Shown: one piece after another, positions 9,881-22,375 of the stretch | Layout: every line of letters starts with the position of its first letter | Position numbering within the stretch: position 1 is the first letter of the stretch | Assembly: GCA_009694835.1 (NCBI GenBank) | Contig: SICC01000007.1 | Span: 1 to 33,889 of the forward strand | DNA: 33,889 nt | Direction of reading: 5' to 3' | Origin: Patescibacteria group bacterium | Lineage (GTDB): Bacteria; Patescibacteriota; SICC01 | Position numbers and translations under genes: made by a program | Notes under the pieces: model-generated | The model's input: the letters and a program-made list of their open reading frames with translations, nothing else | Databases searched by the model: none | What the model was told of the DNA's origin: nothing

Positions 9881-11878
9881 ATGTTAGCCCTGGGTTATCT
9901 TCTGATTTCGTTGGCAGCCGGATTTACCCTGGCCTACGCCATTCCGACTACCAAACTCCGATTCGAAGATCGGGTCTTCTTGGCTATTCCAATTGGATTT
10001 GCCGTGGCCGGACTGCTGACGTTCGGCGCGGCTATGCTGTTCGGCTTGAACGTCTGGGTAATTGGCGGAGTCGCCAGCATATTGATGATTTTCAGTATCG
10101 AATCGTGGTTCCGCGAATACTGGCGAAAGCCGCTCAAGCGCGAATGGCGTGATGTACGGAAGCGCGTAAGAAAACGGCAAGGACTCGGCACCTTCCTGGT
10201 CTACCTCGGCATCGGTGCCATGCTGACCTACATCTACTGGAGTGCCATCTTCCTGCAGGATGGCAGCCTGTTCGCTGGATTCGGGAACGTTTGGGGTGAC
10301 TGGAATCAACACTTGGCTCAAACCAATAGTTTTGCCTTCGGCGATAACTTCCCGCCGGAGTTCAATTATCTGTCTGGTCAGAAGATTACCTATCCGTTCA
10401 TCACTAACTTCTTCTCCGGCGTCTTGCTAAAGGGCGGGTTCGATTTGCTCTGGGCGATGAAAGTTCCTGGCATTCTGCTGGCACTGTCTGGCTTAGGGTT
10501 ACTGGGGACGTTCACCCGAATCACCATCGGCCGCGGCATGTGGCTGACCCCAATCCTCTTCTACTTCTCTGGCGGACTGGGATTTGTGAACTTCTTTACC
10601 GATGCTGCGGGTAGTCACCAGAGCTTCGGCCAATTCTTGGCCAGTCAGCCGCATAACTATACCCAGACCTGGGGTAACGTCCCAATTCCGAATATTAACT
10701 TCATTAACACTATCTATGCCTATCTGATTCCACAGCGCGCCTTCCTGTTCGGCCTGCCGCTGTTGCTCGGCACGGTCTCGCTGCTCTACTTGGGACTGAA
10801 AAGCAAAGGCCGGGATACCAAGTTGTTCCTGGCCGCCGGACTCATCGCCTGTCTGTTACCGCTCATCCACACTCACTCGCTGATGGTGCTGGGTCTGCTG
10901 ACTACCGTGCTCATCCCGCTCACTTGGAAGCAACTGGCTGGACGAGCCAAACCGAAACTCAAACACCTCAAACTGTGGTTGTGGTTCGTGGTACCGATCC
11001 TGATTGTGGCCCTACCGCAATTCGTCTGGCTGACGACTGGCACGCATATTACCGAGTCGTTCCGGTTCCAGTACGGCTGGACCAAAGGCAGCGACGACTT
11101 GGTTTGGTTCTGGTTGAAGAACGCTGGACTGTTTATTCCGCTGATTCTAGTCGGTCTGGTGGTCTTCCGAAAATCAGAACGGCTGCTGGTGTCGTTAACG
11201 CTGGGAGCCGGGCTGGTCTGGCTGGCCGCCAACTTCTACGTCTTCCAACCGTGGGATTGGGATAATACCAAGCTGCTCGTCTACTGGTTCATCTTCAGTC
11301 TGCCGATTGTGGTGCTGTTGCTGTCGCGATGGATGGATCGCGGACGAATCGCCAAAGTAGTAACCGTACTGGTTATTCTCAGTTTGACCGCCGCTGGCTT
11401 GGCTGATGTTTCGAAAACCCTCCAACCAAACAAATACAAAGCGCAGCTGTTCGACCAAACGGGTATTCAGATTGGGCGAGATGTGATCACCGGCACTGCA
11501 CCACACTCTGTCTGGCTGACCTCACAACAGGTTAATAACCCAGTATCAGTACTGGGCGGCCGCCAAGTCTTGCTCGGGTACAGCGGCAACCTCTGGAGCT
11601 ACGGCCTGAAGTTCCAAGATCGTGAACGGGACGTCAAAGCCATGTACGAGGCTCAACCAGGAACCGAAGAGTTACTCAGACAGTATGGCGTGGATTATGT
11701 GGTAATTGGTCCGGCCGAACGGGCCGACAAAGGCTTCACCGTAAACGAAGGGTTCTATCAGCAATTCCCGAGATGGAAAACGTTCGCCGTAAACGGCGGC
11801 AGCGGACCAGTTAACGTTTACGACGTCCAGGTGCTGACGAACTCCTTTTCGAGCCCTACTTCTTCTTCGGCAACGTAA
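9881..11878 (+). CDS. Large GT-C-like multi-pass membrane protein
   Basis: A 665-residue protein with roughly 12-14 hydrophobic segments. A large extracytoplasmic loop (about 125-165) contains FGNVWGDWNQHLAQTNSF and FNYLSGQKITYPF. The D-W-x-x-H element after a membrane segment resembles first-loop motifs of GT-C glycosyltransferases. The C-terminal 140 residues are soluble and include LRQYGVDYVVIGPAE, a sequence style seen at the end of many uncharacterised DUF-type GT-C proteins. It is probably an envelope glycosyltransferase using lipid-linked sugar; this is inference. ATG 9881 is chosen because TATACT lies just upstream. Its end overlaps convergent tsaB by 23 bp. Confidence 0.6.
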   Translation: MLALGYLLISLAAGFTLAYAIPTTKLRFEDRVFLAIPIGFAVAGLLTFGAAMLFGLNVWVIGGVASILMIFSIESWFREYWRKPLKREWRDVRKRVRKRQGLGTFLVYLGIGAMLTYIYWSAIFLQDGSLFAGFGNVWGDWNQHLAQTNSFAFGDNFPPEFNYLSGQKITYPFITNFFSGVLLKGGFDLLWAMKVPGILLALSGLGLLGTFTRITIGRGMWLTPILFYFSGGLGFVNFFTDAAGSHQSFGQFLASQPHNYTQTWGNVPIPNINFINTIYAYLIPQRAFLFGLPLLLGTVSLLYLGLKSKGRDTKLFLAAGLIACLLPLIHTHSLMVLGLLTTVLIPLTWKQLAGRAKPKLKHLKLWLWFVVPILIVALPQFVWLTTGTHITESFRFQYGWTKGSDDLVWFWLKNAGLFIPLILVGLVVFRKSERLLVSLTLGAGLVWLAANFYVFQPWDWDNTKLLVYWFIFSLPIVVLLLSRWMDRGRIAKVVTVLVILSLTAAGLADVSKTLQPNKYKAQLFDQTGIQIGRDVITGTAPHSVWLTSQQVNNPVSVLGGRQVLLGYSGNLWSYGLKFQDRERDVKAMYEAQPGTEELLRQYGVDYVVIGPAERADKGFTVNEGFYQQFPRWKTFAVNGGSGPVNVYDVQVLTNSFSSPTSSSAT

Positions 11879-12272
11879 TCGACGGATCACGTCCGTAGTG
11901 TGGCAGCACGGCACTTTCGGTCTGACGGTCATCAACCCGCGCGGCCACCGTCTTTGCAAAGGCTGAGTCGGAAGGAACTTCGTCAGCATCCAAGGCTACT
12001 ATCGGCAATTTATGGGCGTAGGCTAAAGCGTTCGTCACGGCCACGCCAATGCGCAATGCGGTGAACGGCCCCGGTCCACGGACGATACCGATGGCGGCCA
12101 GACTTTCGAGCGGGGTTTTGGATCCGCGAGATAATTCATCGATTCGCTCCAGTAGTTTCTCGGATAATTGTTTACGATCGGTTACCTGCGAATCGGCTAG
12201 AATTTTATCCGCCGTAGCGATGGCCACCGTGGCCGGTTCTTTGGCAGTGTTAATCAACAGAAAGCGTCTCAT
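11856..12272 (-). CDS. tsaB: TsaB-like t6A biosynthesis protein, short form
   Basis: A 138-residue protein starting MRRFLLINTAKEPATVAI with the TsaB hallmark VRGPGPFTALRIGVAVTNAL (about 64-83). It ends with VLPHYGRDPSIT, resembling the extreme C-terminus of full TsaB (about 220-230 residues). The second ASKHA lobe is missing, leaving the dimer and TsaD-contact lobe. TsaB acts with TsaD and TsaE in making tRNA t6A37. ATG 12272 is chosen because the Shine-Dalgarno GGAGG lies 6 nt upstream inside the 73-bp structured element. The gene follows tsaE in the same operon. Confidence 0.88.
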   Translation of the reverse strand: MRRFLLINTAKEPATVAIATADKILADSQVTDRKQLSEKLLERIDELSRGSKTPLESLAAIGIVRGPGPFTALRIGVAVTNALAYAHKLPIVALDADEVPSDSAFAKTVAARVDDRQTESAVLPHYGRDPSITLPKKK

Positions 12273-12343
12273 CCGACCCTCCTTTGCGAGATGCAAAGCA
12301 TCTCGCCTAAAACTCGGAACGAATTTTCAAAGGAGGGTCGGAT
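12271..12343 (-). promoter_or_regulatory. 73-nt stop-to-start RNA element before tsaB (copy 1)
   Basis: The element runs from the last base of the tsaE stop codon to the second base of the tsaB ATG. Outer stem: 16 bp, 12271-12286 with 12328-12343; the inner hairpin base also uses g12286. Inner hairpin GCGAGATGC-aaa-GCATCTCGC: 12286-12306. A second small hairpin, 12309-12327, pairs fully only as minus-strand RNA because one pair is G-U. The downstream arm contains GGAGGG, the tsaB ribosome-binding site, so the fold would hide it. A ribosome terminating on tsaE could open it, which suggests a coupling device. Alternatively it is a MITE-like repeat. Confidence 0.75.
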
Positions 12344-12792
12344 CATGACGGTAGCGACTTTCTGAGACTCTTTGGCAGATTAATCTTCCGCTCCGTGTCG
12401 CCAACCACTGAAAATTCCACGACGTATTGGTTGTTCCGCTTGGTCTTGTGTAATTTATCCGCCCACTCAATCACCGTAATGGTGTCGTCGTCGGCCAAAC
12501 GGTCGAGCAACTCGATGCTTTCCAGCTCACGATCAGTCGGTTTGTCCGACAATCGGTACAGATCAAAATGCGCTAACCGCGTTGACCGATTCGGTAGCTC
12601 GTATTCACGCAGATAGGTATAGGTGGGGCTTTTGACCGGATCAGTTACACCCAAACCTTCGGCGAGTCCTTGAGTGAAGGCCGTCTTGCCGCTACCCAGC
12701 TGTCCGATTAAGAGCAGGTTCTCACCGCCAGCCATGCTCTGGGCCAGCCGGCGACCGAGCGTTCGGGTTTCATCTGCGGAAGAAGTAATCAT
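12343..12792 (-). CDS. tsaE: TsaE, t6A-modification ATPase
   Basis: A 149-residue P-loop protein of the usual TsaE length: Walker A GQLGSGKT (residues 30-37), then FTQGLAEGLGV, the family signature SPTYTYLREYE (switch-like region), FDLYRL, and ITVIEWADKL near the C-terminus. TsaE stimulates TsaB/TsaD-dependent synthesis of N6-threonylcarbamoyladenosine in tRNAs. It lies between the lamin-tail protein and tsaB; a 73-bp structured element flanks it on each side. ATG 12792 overlaps the end of the upstream copy. Confidence 0.95.
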   Translation of the reverse strand: MITSSADETRTLGRRLAQSMAGGENLLLIGQLGSGKTAFTQGLAEGLGVTDPVKSPTYTYLREYELPNRSTRLAHFDLYRLSDKPTDRELESIELLDRLADDDTITVIEWADKLHKTKRNNQYVVEFSVVGDTERKINLPKSLRKSLPS

Positions 12793-12863
12793 CCGACCCT
12801 ACTTCGCGAGACGCCAAGCGTCTCGCTAGTAAATTTGTTACAAATTTCGAAGTAGGGTCGGGT
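12791..12863 (-). promoter_or_regulatory. 73-nt stop-to-start RNA element before tsaE (copy 2)
   Basis: It has the same length and architecture as the element before tsaB. Outer stem: 14 perfect pairs (12793-12806 with 12848-12861). Inner hairpin GCGAGACGC-caa-GCGTCTCGC: 12806-12826. A second hairpin AAATTTG-tta-CAAATTT: 12831-12847. It runs from the stop codon of the lamin-tail gene to the ATG of tsaE. Compared with copy 1, two outer-stem pairs and one inner-stem pair change on both sides, preserving pairing. GAAGTAGGG is the weaker ribosome-binding region here. Confidence 0.75.
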
Positions 12864-13597
12864 CATAGAGTTCGGATTCGTTTGTACCAGTAGAGCATAG
12901 CAAGCGTCATCGGGAGGACGTAGCCGGCCCAGGGCGTTCCGCCAGCTGGTAGTTTCTTGGCCGCGCTGGTTTTAGTGGCCGACGTTTTACTGCTGGCCGT
13001 CGACGCTTTCGTCGTAGCCGTCGTCGACTTTCCGGTAGCACTGGTTGCCGCGGTAACGATGCCTTCCGGATCAGCACCAGCCTCGGGAGCCGGAATCGGA
13101 TTAACTTCGCCCTTACTAGTAACGTCGGTCCAGGTGCCTTCCGTCGCACTGGAGCGCGCCCAGGATTGCCCTTCGCCACCCGTGTCATCATAGGTCACCC
13201 TATCCAACTCGGTTGTACCCGTCTTCAAAATAAGCGTATCGCCGGTATTGATCAGGCTGCCGCTATTGGTGAAGGCGGCGACTCCGCCAGCCACGATAGT
13301 CGTTCCGGTTGGTACCGTCAAAATGGTCGACCCGGAGATTCGAACGACGAGCAATCCACCAACATCAATGGTGTGGGTCGAGACGTTGGCTAGTTCAACC
13401 CATTCGTTGCCGGTATCCGTACCGACTGGGTTCGGGAGAAACTCGTTGATTCGTACCTCTCCGGCCAACGGCTTAGCAATCGGCTGCATCGAAGCGGTTG
13501 GACTGGGAGACGGCACGGGTGTTGGGGATACCGCCTCTACAAAGTCTGGCATCGCCATCACCAATGCAAACGTGATTGCAATGAGTAGCTGTTTCAT
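12863..13597 (-). CDS. Secreted lamin-tail-domain protein with C-terminal membrane anchor
   Basis: A 244-residue protein. Signal peptide residues 1-22 (MKQLLIAITFALVMAMPDFVEA). A Pro/Ser/Thr linker follows, then a lamin-tail domain (about 46-170): EVRINEFLPNP, NEWVELANVS, and LDRVTYDDTGGEGQSWAR. A low-complexity Ala/Ser/Thr/Lys region follows (about 180-215). The end, KLPAGGTPWAGYVLPMTLAM, is followed by a basic tail. LPAGG plus hydrophobic segment plus Arg/Lys tail resembles a sortase-type sorting signal, but no sortase is in the window. It is the first gene of the operon with tsaE and tsaB, driven by the promoter at 13668-13696. Confidence 0.8.
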   Translation of the reverse strand: MKQLLIAITFALVMAMPDFVEAVSPTPVPSPSPTASMQPIAKPLAGEVRINEFLPNPVGTDTGNEWVELANVSTHTIDVGGLLVVRISGSTILTVPTGTTIVAGGVAAFTNSGSLINTGDTLILKTGTTELDRVTYDDTGGEGQSWARSSATEGTWTDVTSKGEVNPIPAPEAGADPEGIVTAATSATGKSTTATTKASTASSKTSATKTSAAKKLPAGGTPWAGYVLPMTLAMLYWYKRIRTL

Positions 13598-14066: not shown

Positions 14067-14867
14067 CTAGTCTTTAGTATCTTTTTTGTCGTCCGACTTC
14101 TTGTCGTCGGCCTTCTTGTTGCCGCCCGAGTCGTCGGGTTTCTTGTCGTCACCCTTGTCATCTGACTGAGCGTCGTCGTCAGAATCACCGTCACCTTCGC
14201 CTTCAGTTCCTTCTTCACCCTCTTCGCCTTCTTCATCTTCCTCACCTTCAACTTCCGGCTCACCGGTATCTTCATCCTCAGCCAGTTCAGCCTCGAGCTG
14301 CTCTTCCGTCTTCGGCGGTTGGACGGCAACCACGTTGGTCTCGGCTTCGCTCAACACCTCGACACCTTCCGGAATCTTCAGGTCGGCCACAGTAATGGCG
14401 TCTTCAAATGTCTTGAGAGCCGCAAGGTCGACGATAATTTCGGATGGTAGGTCACCTGGCAAACATCCAATCTCCAGTTCGTTCAAGTTGGTAACCAAAA
14501 TTCCGTCTAGTTCGCGGACGGCTGGTGATTCGCCATCGGTATGAATCGGCACAGTGGCCTTAATCTTCTCGTCCATCTTCACTTGGAAGAGATCGGCGTG
14601 CAGATACTGCCCCGTCCGCGGATCGCGTTGGATCTCATGAATCAGGACCGTCTGATCGCCATCCGACATTTTCATCGTGACCATGGCGGAGCGGCCGGCC
14701 TTTCGGTAGACCTTCTCCAGTTCACCGCGAGCGATAGTCAGATTCTTCGGTTCAACGTGGTGACCGTACAGAACTACTGGAACCACTCCGTCACGACGGA
14801 GCTGTTTGACCTTACGCCCGGTGATTTCCCGAGGTTCGGCTTTCAGCGTGTAGGTTTGGTTAGTCAT
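14067..14867 (-). CDS. rplY: Ribosomal protein L25 (CTC/TL5 type) with long acidic tail
   Basis: A 266-residue protein. The N-terminal L25 5S-rRNA-binding domain (about 1-92) has LKAEPREITGRKVKQLRRDG, VVPVVLYGH and VLIHEIQRDPRTGQYLHADL. The TL5 C-terminal domain (about 95-185) follows. The last 75 residues are almost wholly Asp/Glu/Gly/Lys, ending in DDKK repeats. ATG 14867 is chosen because the L25 domain begins there; upstream in-frame residues come from a GACT repeat. TACAAT (14905-14910) is the likely -10. The end abuts the convergent pilin gene. Confidence 0.93.
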   Translation of the reverse strand: MTNQTYTLKAEPREITGRKVKQLRRDGVVPVVLYGHHVEPKNLTIARGELEKVYRKAGRSAMVTMKMSDGDQTVLIHEIQRDPRTGQYLHADLFQVKMDEKIKATVPIHTDGESPAVRELDGILVTNLNELEIGCLPGDLPSEIIVDLAALKTFEDAITVADLKIPEGVEVLSEAETNVVAVQPPKTEEQLEAELAEDEDTGEPEVEGEEDEEGEEGEEGTEGEGDGDSDDDAQSDDKGDDKKPDDSGGNKKADDKKSDDKKDTKD

Positions 14868-14895
14868 TAGTCGCGAGTCGTGAGTCGTTAGAGAC
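14868..14895. repeat. GACT/AGTC repeat in the L25 5' leader
   Basis: Immediately upstream of the L25 ATG, the minus strand reads repeated CGACT-type units (ACGACTCACGACTCGCGACT). This forms most of the short leader between TACAAT (14905-14910) and the start codon. Confidence 0.6.
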
Positions 14896-16730: not shown

Positions 16731-16768
16731 GATTCAGTCGTCAGTCATCAGACTTCAGTCCTCAGCTG
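16731..16768. repeat. GACT/AGTC repeat upstream of atpG
   Basis: CAGTCGTCAGTCATCAGACTTC and related units fill the gap between the atpG start and the cupin stop and run into the cupin 3' end. Same repeat type as near 9800, 14880, 17130, 20950 and 22340. Confidence 0.6.
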
Positions 16769-17121
16769 ACTACCTCCAATTTTTCAGGGTTGAACGGTGG
16801 GTTGTGGATTCCCAGCATGGTCATCTGGCCCGAGTGTGAAAAACTACTGCCTTTCGGTACATATACCAAATCACCTTTGGTAACTTCGTGAACAGTCCCA
16901 TTAATTGTGTAGGTTCCCGAACCTTCGAGTACAAAGTCGAACGTGTCCGCGCCCGTATCAACCGTCGTGTCATCTTCCCCGTCAATTTTCACGATGGCAA
17001 AACTAACGCTGGAATGATCATCCACGAGCTTGCGAATCGAAAGGACACCTCGCTCGAAAGGCTGTACTTCACTCGACTTAATAACTCCAGCCTTCACAAT
17101 CTTACGACTCACGACTCGCAT
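16762..17121 (-). CDS. Cupin-domain protein inside the ATP synthase cluster
   Basis: About 119 residues. The beta-barrel motifs [20 protein letters not shown] and [20 protein letters not shown] correspond to the two cupin motifs. The metal-ligand histidines of motif 1 are mostly replaced (DTFDFVLEG), so catalysis is doubtful; a ligand-binding or scaffold role is possible. The start is uncertain. ATG 17121 lies within the GACT tract that also encodes the atpA C-terminus (20-bp overlap). GTG codons a few residues in (about 17112 and 17097) are alternatives. It sits between atpA and atpG, an unusual position. Confidence 0.7.
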
Positions 17122-18664
17122 CTGATGTCTGATGTCTGTCGTCTGACGACTGACTAAATCGCTTCGCTTTCTTAAACTGCGTAATCGCCTTGTCGAGTTC
17201 AGCTTTCAGCTCATCGGTCAGGACCGGCTCTTTCTTAAGGGCGGTCGCGACTTTGCCGTGCTTCTGTTCAACATACGGAATGAACTGCGCTCCGAATTCC
17301 TGGATGCGCTCGACCGCAACGTCGTCCAAGCCACCGCTGGTGGCAGCGTAGATAATTACCACTTGTTGGTAATCCTTCAGCGGTTGGTACTGATCCTGCT
17401 TGAGGACTTCCGTCAGTCGCGCACCGCGATCGAGTCGGCCACGGGTTTCTTCACCCAAGTCAGAACCGAACTGGGCGAAGGCCGCCAGCTCGCGATACTG
17501 AGCCAGTTCCAATCGGAGACTTCCGGCTACGGACTTCATGGCCTTGGTCTGAGCGGCGCCGCCGACTCGCGAGACCGAGTTACCAACGTTGATGGCCGGC
17601 CGGATGCCCTGGTAGAACAAGTCCGTCTCAAGGTAAATCTGGCCGTCGGTGATGGAAATGACGTTAGTCGGAATATAGGCCGAGAGGTCACCGGCTTGAG
17701 TCTCAATCACCGGCAACGCCGTCAACGAGCCGTTACCGTGCTCCTTGTTCAGACGGGCCGCTCGTTCGAGCAACCGTGAGTGCAAGTAGAAAACGTCGCC
17801 CGGATACGCCTCGCGGCCGGACGGACGGCGCAGCAACAGTGATAGTTCGCGGTAGGCCGTGGCATGTTTGGAAAGATCGTCGTAGGCAATCAGCGCGTCA
17901 CGTCCGGAGTCCCGGAAGTATTCGCCGATCGTGCAGCCGGCGTACGGTGCCAAGTAGAGTTGGGCCGCTGGATCGGTGGCGGTGGCGACCACCACCACGC
18001 TTCGCTCCATCGCCCCATGCTCCTCAAGCGTCGCCACCAACCGCGCTACCTTGGAGGCCTTCTGGCCGATCGCCACGTAAATCGAAATCACGTCGCCCTT
18101 TTTCTGGTTCAGAATGGTATCGACGATGAGCGCCGTCTTGCCGGACTGCCGGTCACCGATAATCAGTTCGCGCTGGCCGCGGCCAATCGGCACCATGGCG
18201 TCGATAGCCTTCACGCCCGTGTGGAGCGGTGTATCAACCGACTGCCGGCTGATAACTCCCGGAGCGACCACGTCGACCGGAGCGCGCTTTTTGGTCTTGA
18301 TCGGGCCTTTGCCATCGATTGGTTCACCGAGCGCATTCACCACGCGTCCAATCAGCTCGTCGCCAACCGGCACGCTCATAACCTCACCAGTTGAGCGGAC
18401 TTCGCCGCCTTCCTTCAGGCCAGTATCGTCGCCGAGGATGACGGCACCAACGGTACTTTCATCCAAGTTCAGGGCGATTCCGAAGACTCCGCCGCCAAAG
18501 TTGAGTCGTTCCGAGGCTTTCACTTCAGACAGACCGGCGATGACGGCGATGCCGTCGCCGACCGAGATGATTCGGCCACGAGACTTCTGTTGGCGAGCCA
18601 GACTACTCTTCTCAACTCGGCCAGCGAGCGTAGCGGTAATTTTGTCTGCCGTTGGATCAGACAT
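17102..18664 (-). CDS. atpA: ATP synthase F1 alpha subunit
   Basis: 520 residues: N-terminal beta barrel (about 25-90), Walker A GDRQSGKT (170-177), then the catalytic-interface region [20 protein letters not shown] with [20 protein letters not shown], and the C-terminal helical domain. It forms the non-catalytic nucleotide sites of F1. AAGGAG lies 5 nt before ATG 18664. The last about 17 residues (SQSSDD...SRES) are encoded by a GACT repeat tract and extend past the normal end after AKRF, probably by repeat expansion. The next gene, cupin, overlaps by 20 bp. Confidence 0.97.
17103..17157. repeat. GACT/AGTC repeat overlapping the atpA 3' end and cupin 5' end
   Basis: Units such as GACTCACGACTCG, CTGATGTCTGATGTCTG and CGTCTGACGACTGACT occupy the end of atpA. 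They encode its last residues ([17 protein letters not shown]) and also the first residues of the cupin frame. Confidence 0.65.
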
Positions 18665-20933: not shown

Positions 20934-20935
20934 GG

Positions 20936-20966
20936 TCAGTCGTCGGACGTCGGACGTCAGTCATAA
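20936..20966. repeat. GACT/GACGTC repeat upstream of atpB
   Basis: The minus strand reads TGACTGACGTCCGACGTCCGACGACTGAC just before the atpB ATG, with a tandem CGACGTC unit. The location, directly before a start codon, is like the L25 and atpG cases. Confidence 0.6.
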
Positions 20967-20990
20967 GACAATTAAATTGTAGAACGATAG

Positions 20991-22314: not shown

Positions 22315-22320
22315 ACAATA

Positions 22321-22375
22321 AGTCTACAGCTGTCAGACTCAGGACGTCAGGATTATCGTTTCTCTGATGTCTAGC
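22321..22375. repeat. GACT-type repeat and -10 TAGACT upstream of the WecA-like gene
   Basis: The segment holds TCTACAGCTGTCAGACTCAGGACGTCAGG and CTGATGTCTAG, variants of the GACT repeat. TAGACT (22321-22326, minus) is 6 nt before the ATG, so the repeat occupies the promoter region. Confidence 0.5.

Follow-up and report, generated by a model that had tools for sequence, protein, structure and literature searches.

Two Palindromic Elements at the Junctions of tsaE

The window, by which we mean the whole stretch of 33,889 nucleotides analyzed here, is contig 23 of a 578-kb Patescibacteria genome (G000) that is assembled in 29 contigs and is 83% complete. On its minus strand, the gene for a secreted lamin-tail-like protein is followed by tsaE and tsaB (Table 1), and this order is conserved both in G001, a genome from the same family but another genus, and in G002, from the same genus as G001. 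The tsaE gene was assigned by a match to the Pfam TsaE family (G000:C23:12385-12783, E = 1.6e-33), and a tsaE scan of genome contigs returned distant relatives only. The name tsaB is that of the original prediction, the tsaB-like gene being called here from its ORF and from synteny with G001 and G002; the lamin-tail-like label, like the gene names at all compared junctions other than tsaE, was assigned by eye from the translated sequence.

The original prediction described two 73-nt elements in this cluster, each extending on the minus strand from a stop codon to the ATG of the following gene; both are confirmed by the sequence, one ahead of tsaB (copy 1) and one ahead of tsaE (copy 2). In gene sense both copies read ...ATGA-TCCGACCC....GGGTCGG-ATGA..., with the first T changed to C in copy 2, where the first TGA ends the upstream gene and the last ATG begins the downstream one. 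Copy 1 is the palindrome TCCGACCCTCCTTTG...CAAAGGAGGGTCGGA with ATGA at each flank, and scored 99.6 bits with the covariance model described below. As predicted, both copies fold into an outer stem enclosing two hairpins, one AT-rich and one GC-rich, with fold energies of -45.3 (copy 1) and -43.0 kcal/mol (copy 2), whereas their shuffled versions average -18.8 and -16.2 (z = -9.2 and -9.0; 0 of 200 shuffles as good), and the stem starts 0-1 nt past the stop codon. The outer stem, expected to be 14-16 bp long, measures 15 bp in copy 1 but folds with 13 bp in copy 2. The expected double-sided changes between the copies are present (C-G to A-U and U-A to C-G in the outer stem, U-A to C-G in an inner stem), and the AT-rich hairpin keeps its pairing, which in copy 1 includes a U-G pair, despite sequence differences between the copies. 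The placement of the ribosome-binding region also holds in that an SD-like stretch and the start codon lie in the 3′ arm, with GGAGGG in copy 1; copy 2, however, has GUAGGG, so that the SD-like sequence is not constant. In copy 1, AAAGGAGG is a perfect 8-nt match to CCTCCTTT of the genome's 16S tail (duplex -12.6 kcal/mol), the tail itself (GGATCACCTCCTTTCT, on G000:C5) being standard. The two copies flanking tsaE had prompted the idea of a gene cassette (attC), which was rejected since G001 and G002 have this gene order with no element at these junctions.

Table 1. Genes and palindromic elements of the tsaE region, with copies of a second palindrome family (window positions unless a contig is named)
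Feature	Position	Strand	Remarks
tsaB-like gene (MRRFLLINTAKEP...)	11856-12272	-	3′ of copy 1; ORF, syntenic in G001 and G002
Element copy 1	12271-12343	-	tsaE stop TGA 12345-12343 to tsaB start ATG 12272-12270
Copy 1, outer stem 3′ arm	12272-12285	-	AAAGGAGG at 12285-12278 and A of tsaB ATG
Copy 1, GC-rich hairpin GCGAGATGC-TTT-GCATCTCGC	12286-12306	-	
Copy 1, AT-rich hairpin AAAATTCG-TTC-CGAGTTTT	12309-12327	-	Holds the one U-G pair of copy 1
Copy 1, outer stem 5′ arm	12329-12342	-	Adjoins TGA; partner 12285-12272
tsaE gene	12343-12792	-	Flanked by copies 1 and 2; Pfam TsaE match
Element copy 2	12791-12863	-	Lamin-tail-like gene stop TGA 12865-12863 to tsaE ATG 12792-12790
Copy 2, outer stem 3′ arm	12793-12805	-	GUAGGG ahead of tsaE ATG, weaker SD
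Copy 2, GC-rich hairpin GCGAGACGC-TTG-GCGTCTCGC	12806-12826	-	
Copy 2, AT-rich hairpin AAATTTG-TAA-CAAATTT	12831-12847	-	
Copy 2, outer stem 5′ arm	12849-12861	-	Partner 12805-12793
Secreted lamin-tail-like protein gene	12863-13597	-	5′ of copy 2; ORF and conserved gene order
Second family, copies	G000:C4:2571-2618, C8:28921-29020, C13:2508-2606, C20:4971-5015, C27:30906-30969, C29:19821		
Second family, loci	L057, L062, L068, L079, L092, L088		

Copies of the Element and Their Placement

A pattern search followed by a covariance model (R1) yielded seven full copies in G000 and one in G001, with identities between copies of 39-91% in ungapped comparison. All eight share the overall design of an outer stem and two hairpins, all lie in gene sense, and all end in an ATGA that forms the start of a long downstream ORF. 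Seven of the eight begin directly after the TGA of a real upstream gene in a co-directed pair, the exception being the copy at C8:32959, which has no gene 5′ of the ATGA where it begins and at its other end reaches the start of an MFS transporter gene. In addition, a partial remnant comprising the right end only is found at C19:15133 (G000:C19:15066-15143), beside a GTCATTCCGG-type palindrome and directly 5′ of an ATGA start codon. The original prediction had proposed a covariance-model search of this kind and had named a family lying mostly outside operons, in both orientations or without covariation as evidence against it; none of these patterns was seen. The SD-like purine stretch of the 3′ arm is a strong SD match in three of the eight copies and weak in copy 2 and in the copy on C28, and energies of the duplex with the 16S tail range across the copies from -6.1 to -13.0 kcal/mol.

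A second model (R2) was then built from all eight copies. G002 has no copy in its whole genome with either R1 or R2 (its sequence was read in part, the model searches covering all of it), and R2, run with stricter filters, detected no additional copy in a sample of 380 genomes from across the phylum, 377 of them from other families and without copies, or in the examined stretches of G001 and G002. Exact-pattern scans gave no copies in phages, plasmids, viral contigs or other genome contigs, collections from which records of the own lineage were perhaps excluded, and Rfam gave no match at gathering score, the window returning tRNAs only and a best weak match of E = 9. Crude gene calls give G000 55 free NTGA stop-start overlaps as against 2110 intergenic TGAs (both strands), and no copy of the family is present at any of these roughly 2110 intergenic TGAs. 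The probability that at least six of the seven G000 copies would fall in overlaps is about 3e-9, a value that depends on these crude gene calls and assumes that TGA is the sole requirement and that all non-coding sites are equal. Either insertion targets start/stop sites, or copies elsewhere are lost.

Pairing and Covariation

Over the eight copies, 92.9% of the alignment cells of the outer stem and GC-rich hairpin are paired. Double-sided changes occur in 10 of 23 pairs (shuffled mean 4.3) and in 18 cells as compared to 4.9 after shuffling, and the covariation score is 0.345 (0.164 shuffled); none of 500 shuffles attained these values, and slid controls gave at most two such pairs and scores of at most 0.115. 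The AT-rich hairpin was left out of this count because it pairs in most copies but is shifted by one position between subgroups. The covariation noticed between the two window copies thus extends to the larger alignment, where compensatory changes exceed chance, and this suggests that the fold itself is under selection, whether in the mRNA or in a DNA intermediate of mobility, two forms between which covariation does not discriminate. The original prediction had favored the mRNA on the grounds that a G-U pair of copy 1 was available in one strand only. This argument did not survive the comparison of all eight copies, in which the antisense strand folds with about the same energy as the sense strand, and some sense A-C mismatches become G-U pairs in the antisense RNA; because antisense folding is as good, structure alone leaves an RNA role unproven.

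Empty and Occupied Junctions

The presence of the family in two related genera with conserved gene order allowed occupied junctions to be compared with their element-free counterparts. Five junctions occupied in G000 are bare in G001, namely those of the lamin-tail-like gene and tsaE (GGCAT-ATGA-TTTCC), tsaE and tsaB (ATTTG-ATGA-GGCGC), the gatD-like gene and pyrE (GCAGC-GTGA-ACGCG), the gene pair on C28 (GCGCG-ATGA-AGGCC), and pilN and pilO (TGATG overlap), such that the empty site is ATGA in three cases, GTGA in one and TGATG in one. Reciprocally, the junction of atpC and murA carries an element in G001 and is a bare overlap, AGCTC-ATGA-GCACG, in G000. This reciprocal presence and absence between sister genera indicates that the elements are mobile and MITE/REP-like. 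A MITE/REP-like repeat had been offered in the original prediction as the alternative to an RNA element, but in light of the empty sites, which show mobile palindromic insertions, the two are not alternatives. Overall, the interpretation given there is partly supported, the mobility of the palindromes having been missed.

TGA is found at both flanks of all eight copies, usually as ATGA. In G000 the gatD-like/pyrE element is flanked by GTGA on its left, matching the empty site, and by ATGA on its right, from which it follows that the shared unit is TGA and that the last base of the element, an A, turns NTG into ATG. The same layout is also expected without duplication if the right TGA is the element's own, and the flanks accordingly fit either a TGA duplication or an IS200/IS605-type target plus element end. 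By these comparisons, insertion leaves both genes intact and apparently equips the second with a new start codon and ribosome-binding site. In G002, the two window junctions read ATGA-N9-ATGA and ATGA-N10-ATGA (L051:1480-1500 and L051:1935-1952), spacings that may be scars of lost insertions or independent changes; they make the window junctions less clean than atpC/murA, and their ancestral state is not perfectly clear.

Relation to Known Mobile Palindromes

At 73 nt, non-coding, with outer inverted repeats of 13-16 bp and seven copies in one genome, the family resembles bacterial MITEs, with which it shares short length, lack of an ORF, long terminal inverted repeats, multiple copies, matching short flanks and presence/absence between relatives. 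It differs from them in having no partner transposase that we could find, in the location of nearly all copies at stop-start overlaps in one orientation, and in an element end that rebuilds a start codon and carries an SD-like sequence. Y1_Tnp (PF01797), DDE_Tnp_1 and rve domains were absent from G000 (83% complete), G001 and G002 in searches that detected the positive controls, and no long element with the same ends was seen that could serve as an autonomous partner; each of the three genomes encodes one Xer-like integrase-family recombinase. A terminal-repeat scan with free flanks was swamped by chance palindromes and uninformative. REP/BIME sequences with their Y1 transposase TnpA-REP are likewise palindromic repeats near gene ends, and those close to stop codons affect translation (PMC12306157). 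In contrast to them, the present elements enclose two inner hairpins in an outer stem, are placed in NTGA overlaps whereas REPs are generally intergenic, and occur in genomes where Y1_Tnp was not found. Mobile hairpins tolerated in genes or at gene boundaries are also known from mitochondria (double hairpin elements, RHE, byps; see PMC2800124). Compared with these hairpin elements, the family described here has a bacterial host and a stop-to-start placement, and bypassing is unnecessary.

G000 also contains a second family of palindromes, CCCAGCNCCTC...GAGGNGCTGGG, whose loops vary and whose flanks mostly contain TGA. One copy occupies the ATGA overlap of rplQ and rplM, a junction that is bare in G001 and G002. 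Two further copies lie in ATGAA start codons, those of a glycosyltransferase gene and dnaN, where G001 has plain ATGAAG/ATGAAA starts and G000 reads ATGAA-element-TGAA; GTG is the likely new start at these two insertions. The second family is also found at sites other than starts and in either orientation, and in this respect is like ordinary MITEs.

Proposed Mechanism and Alternatives

In bacteria, few kinds of gene junction are as common as the overlap of stop and start codons, which is believed to enforce coupled translation. The target sites of the elements are exactly the ATGA, GTGA and TGATG overlaps at which coupling by termination-reinitiation has been described (PMC6728339, PMC10666635), with the difference that stop and start now lie 70 nt apart in sequence and would be joined only by the stem. 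The reading that we favor, with a probability of roughly 0.6, is that the family consists of mobile palindromes residing in stop-start overlaps, whose stem masks an SD sequence that would be freed by the terminating ribosome, a coupling step that we infer. Short non-coding palindromes insert into the TGA within a start codon (NTGA), chiefly in the 4-nt ATGA/GTGA overlaps of operons, leaving a TGA on each side, the left of which still terminates the upstream gene. Together with TGA, the A at the right end of the element restores the downstream ATG, with an SD-like GAGGG ahead of it in the 3′ arm. The insertion, its site, the gene layout, the preservation of both frames, the ATG with the element's base, the SD-like stretch and the conserved pairing are grounded in sequence comparison. 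In the mRNA, the predicted fold of outer stem and two hairpins would mask the SD and bring stop and start next to each other. On reaching the TGA, a terminating ribosome would then open the stem by entering its 5′ arm, which would expose the SD, and the downstream gene would be translated mainly when the upstream gene is.

Such termination-reinitiation coupling through the element is plausible in light of work on other gene pairs. In E. coli pairs tested, an additional spacing of 38 nt nearly abolished coupling (PMC10666635), and a plain 70-nt insert is thus expected to uncouple the genes unless it is looped out. RNA unfolding couples other gene pairs, in which the ribosome on the upstream gene opens a hairpin that masks the SD (reviewed in PMC12548453), the same working principle as the one predicted here, except that the masking hairpin would be a mobile insertion rather than native to the gene pair. 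The same review reports that structure just past the stop correlates with weaker coupling, which counts against our proposal. We also consider, tentatively and with the odds slightly against it, that the elements represent a mobile class specialized for translation junctions and comprising at least two families, joined by a lookalike palindrome in G001, in which the element's own end rebuilds start and SD and a self-looping stem, opened only by a ribosome that completes the upstream gene, keeps the coupling. Our literature search found no report that joined MITEs with translational coupling.

The main rival is a purely selfish or neutral origin, in which the palindromes insert at many TGAs but survive only where nothing is broken, the fold serves DNA mobility only and nothing is regulated; imprecise deletion would be lethal since the element now carries the stop, SD and start. 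This we regard as unlikely, even though the MITE-like anatomy and the empty sites, the equal folding of sense and antisense strands, and the second family, with copies off start codons in both orientations, all agree with it. Survivorship would have to assume fast loss elsewhere, given a single remnant and no copy of the first family at the intergenic TGAs, and pairing is kept in copies that have diverged to 39-91% identity. An improbable alternative is that the elements act as REP-like attenuators, the strong hairpin past the stop holding up ribosomes as they terminate and reducing expression of the upstream gene, with effects on the downstream gene being incidental. Ribosome stalling has been reported for E. 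coli REPs that lie within 15 nt of a stop codon (PMC12306157, citing Liang et al. 2015), and the stem adjoining the stop here falls well inside that distance, but attenuation leaves unexplained why the 3′ end is always at the next start codon and why the MFS-start copy has no upstream gene. A vertically inherited, non-mobile cis-regulatory RNA of the operon class (riboswitch-like), the original reading, which strong covariation and fixed position would suit, is very improbable given the unrelated gene pairs, the TGA on both sides and the lack of an Rfam match, and it is contradicted by the reciprocal empty sites between sister genera.

Together, the paired junctions form a natural set of empty and occupied sites at which palindromes entered exactly at the stop-start overlap and neither gene was broken. 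They make it testable whether the stem loops out the insert so that coupling survives, and how the element finds start codons. If mobile palindromes of this kind do mask and release the SD as proposed, they offer operons a possible route to new SD-led, structure-controlled initiation sites.

Further Palindromes and Repeats

Several other repeats were noted. In the window, degenerate CAGTCGTCAGTCATCAGAC-like repeats, direct and inverted, are located in intergenic regions near the atp operon (14862-14892, 16734-16768, 17100-17154, 20935-20968 and 22319-22350). In G001, a stop-to-start palindrome on the minus strand, ATGA-TCCCGCC...GGCGGG-ATGA (C1:436689-436610), is located between genes for a flippase-like protein and a glycosyltransferase; it has several inner hairpins, differs in its inner sequence and does not match the models. 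An unrelated genome of the same phylum (G025) has its own repeated palindrome, TCCCGTTAGAAAT...ATTTCTAACGGGA, present in several copies (L236, L242, L245, L252).
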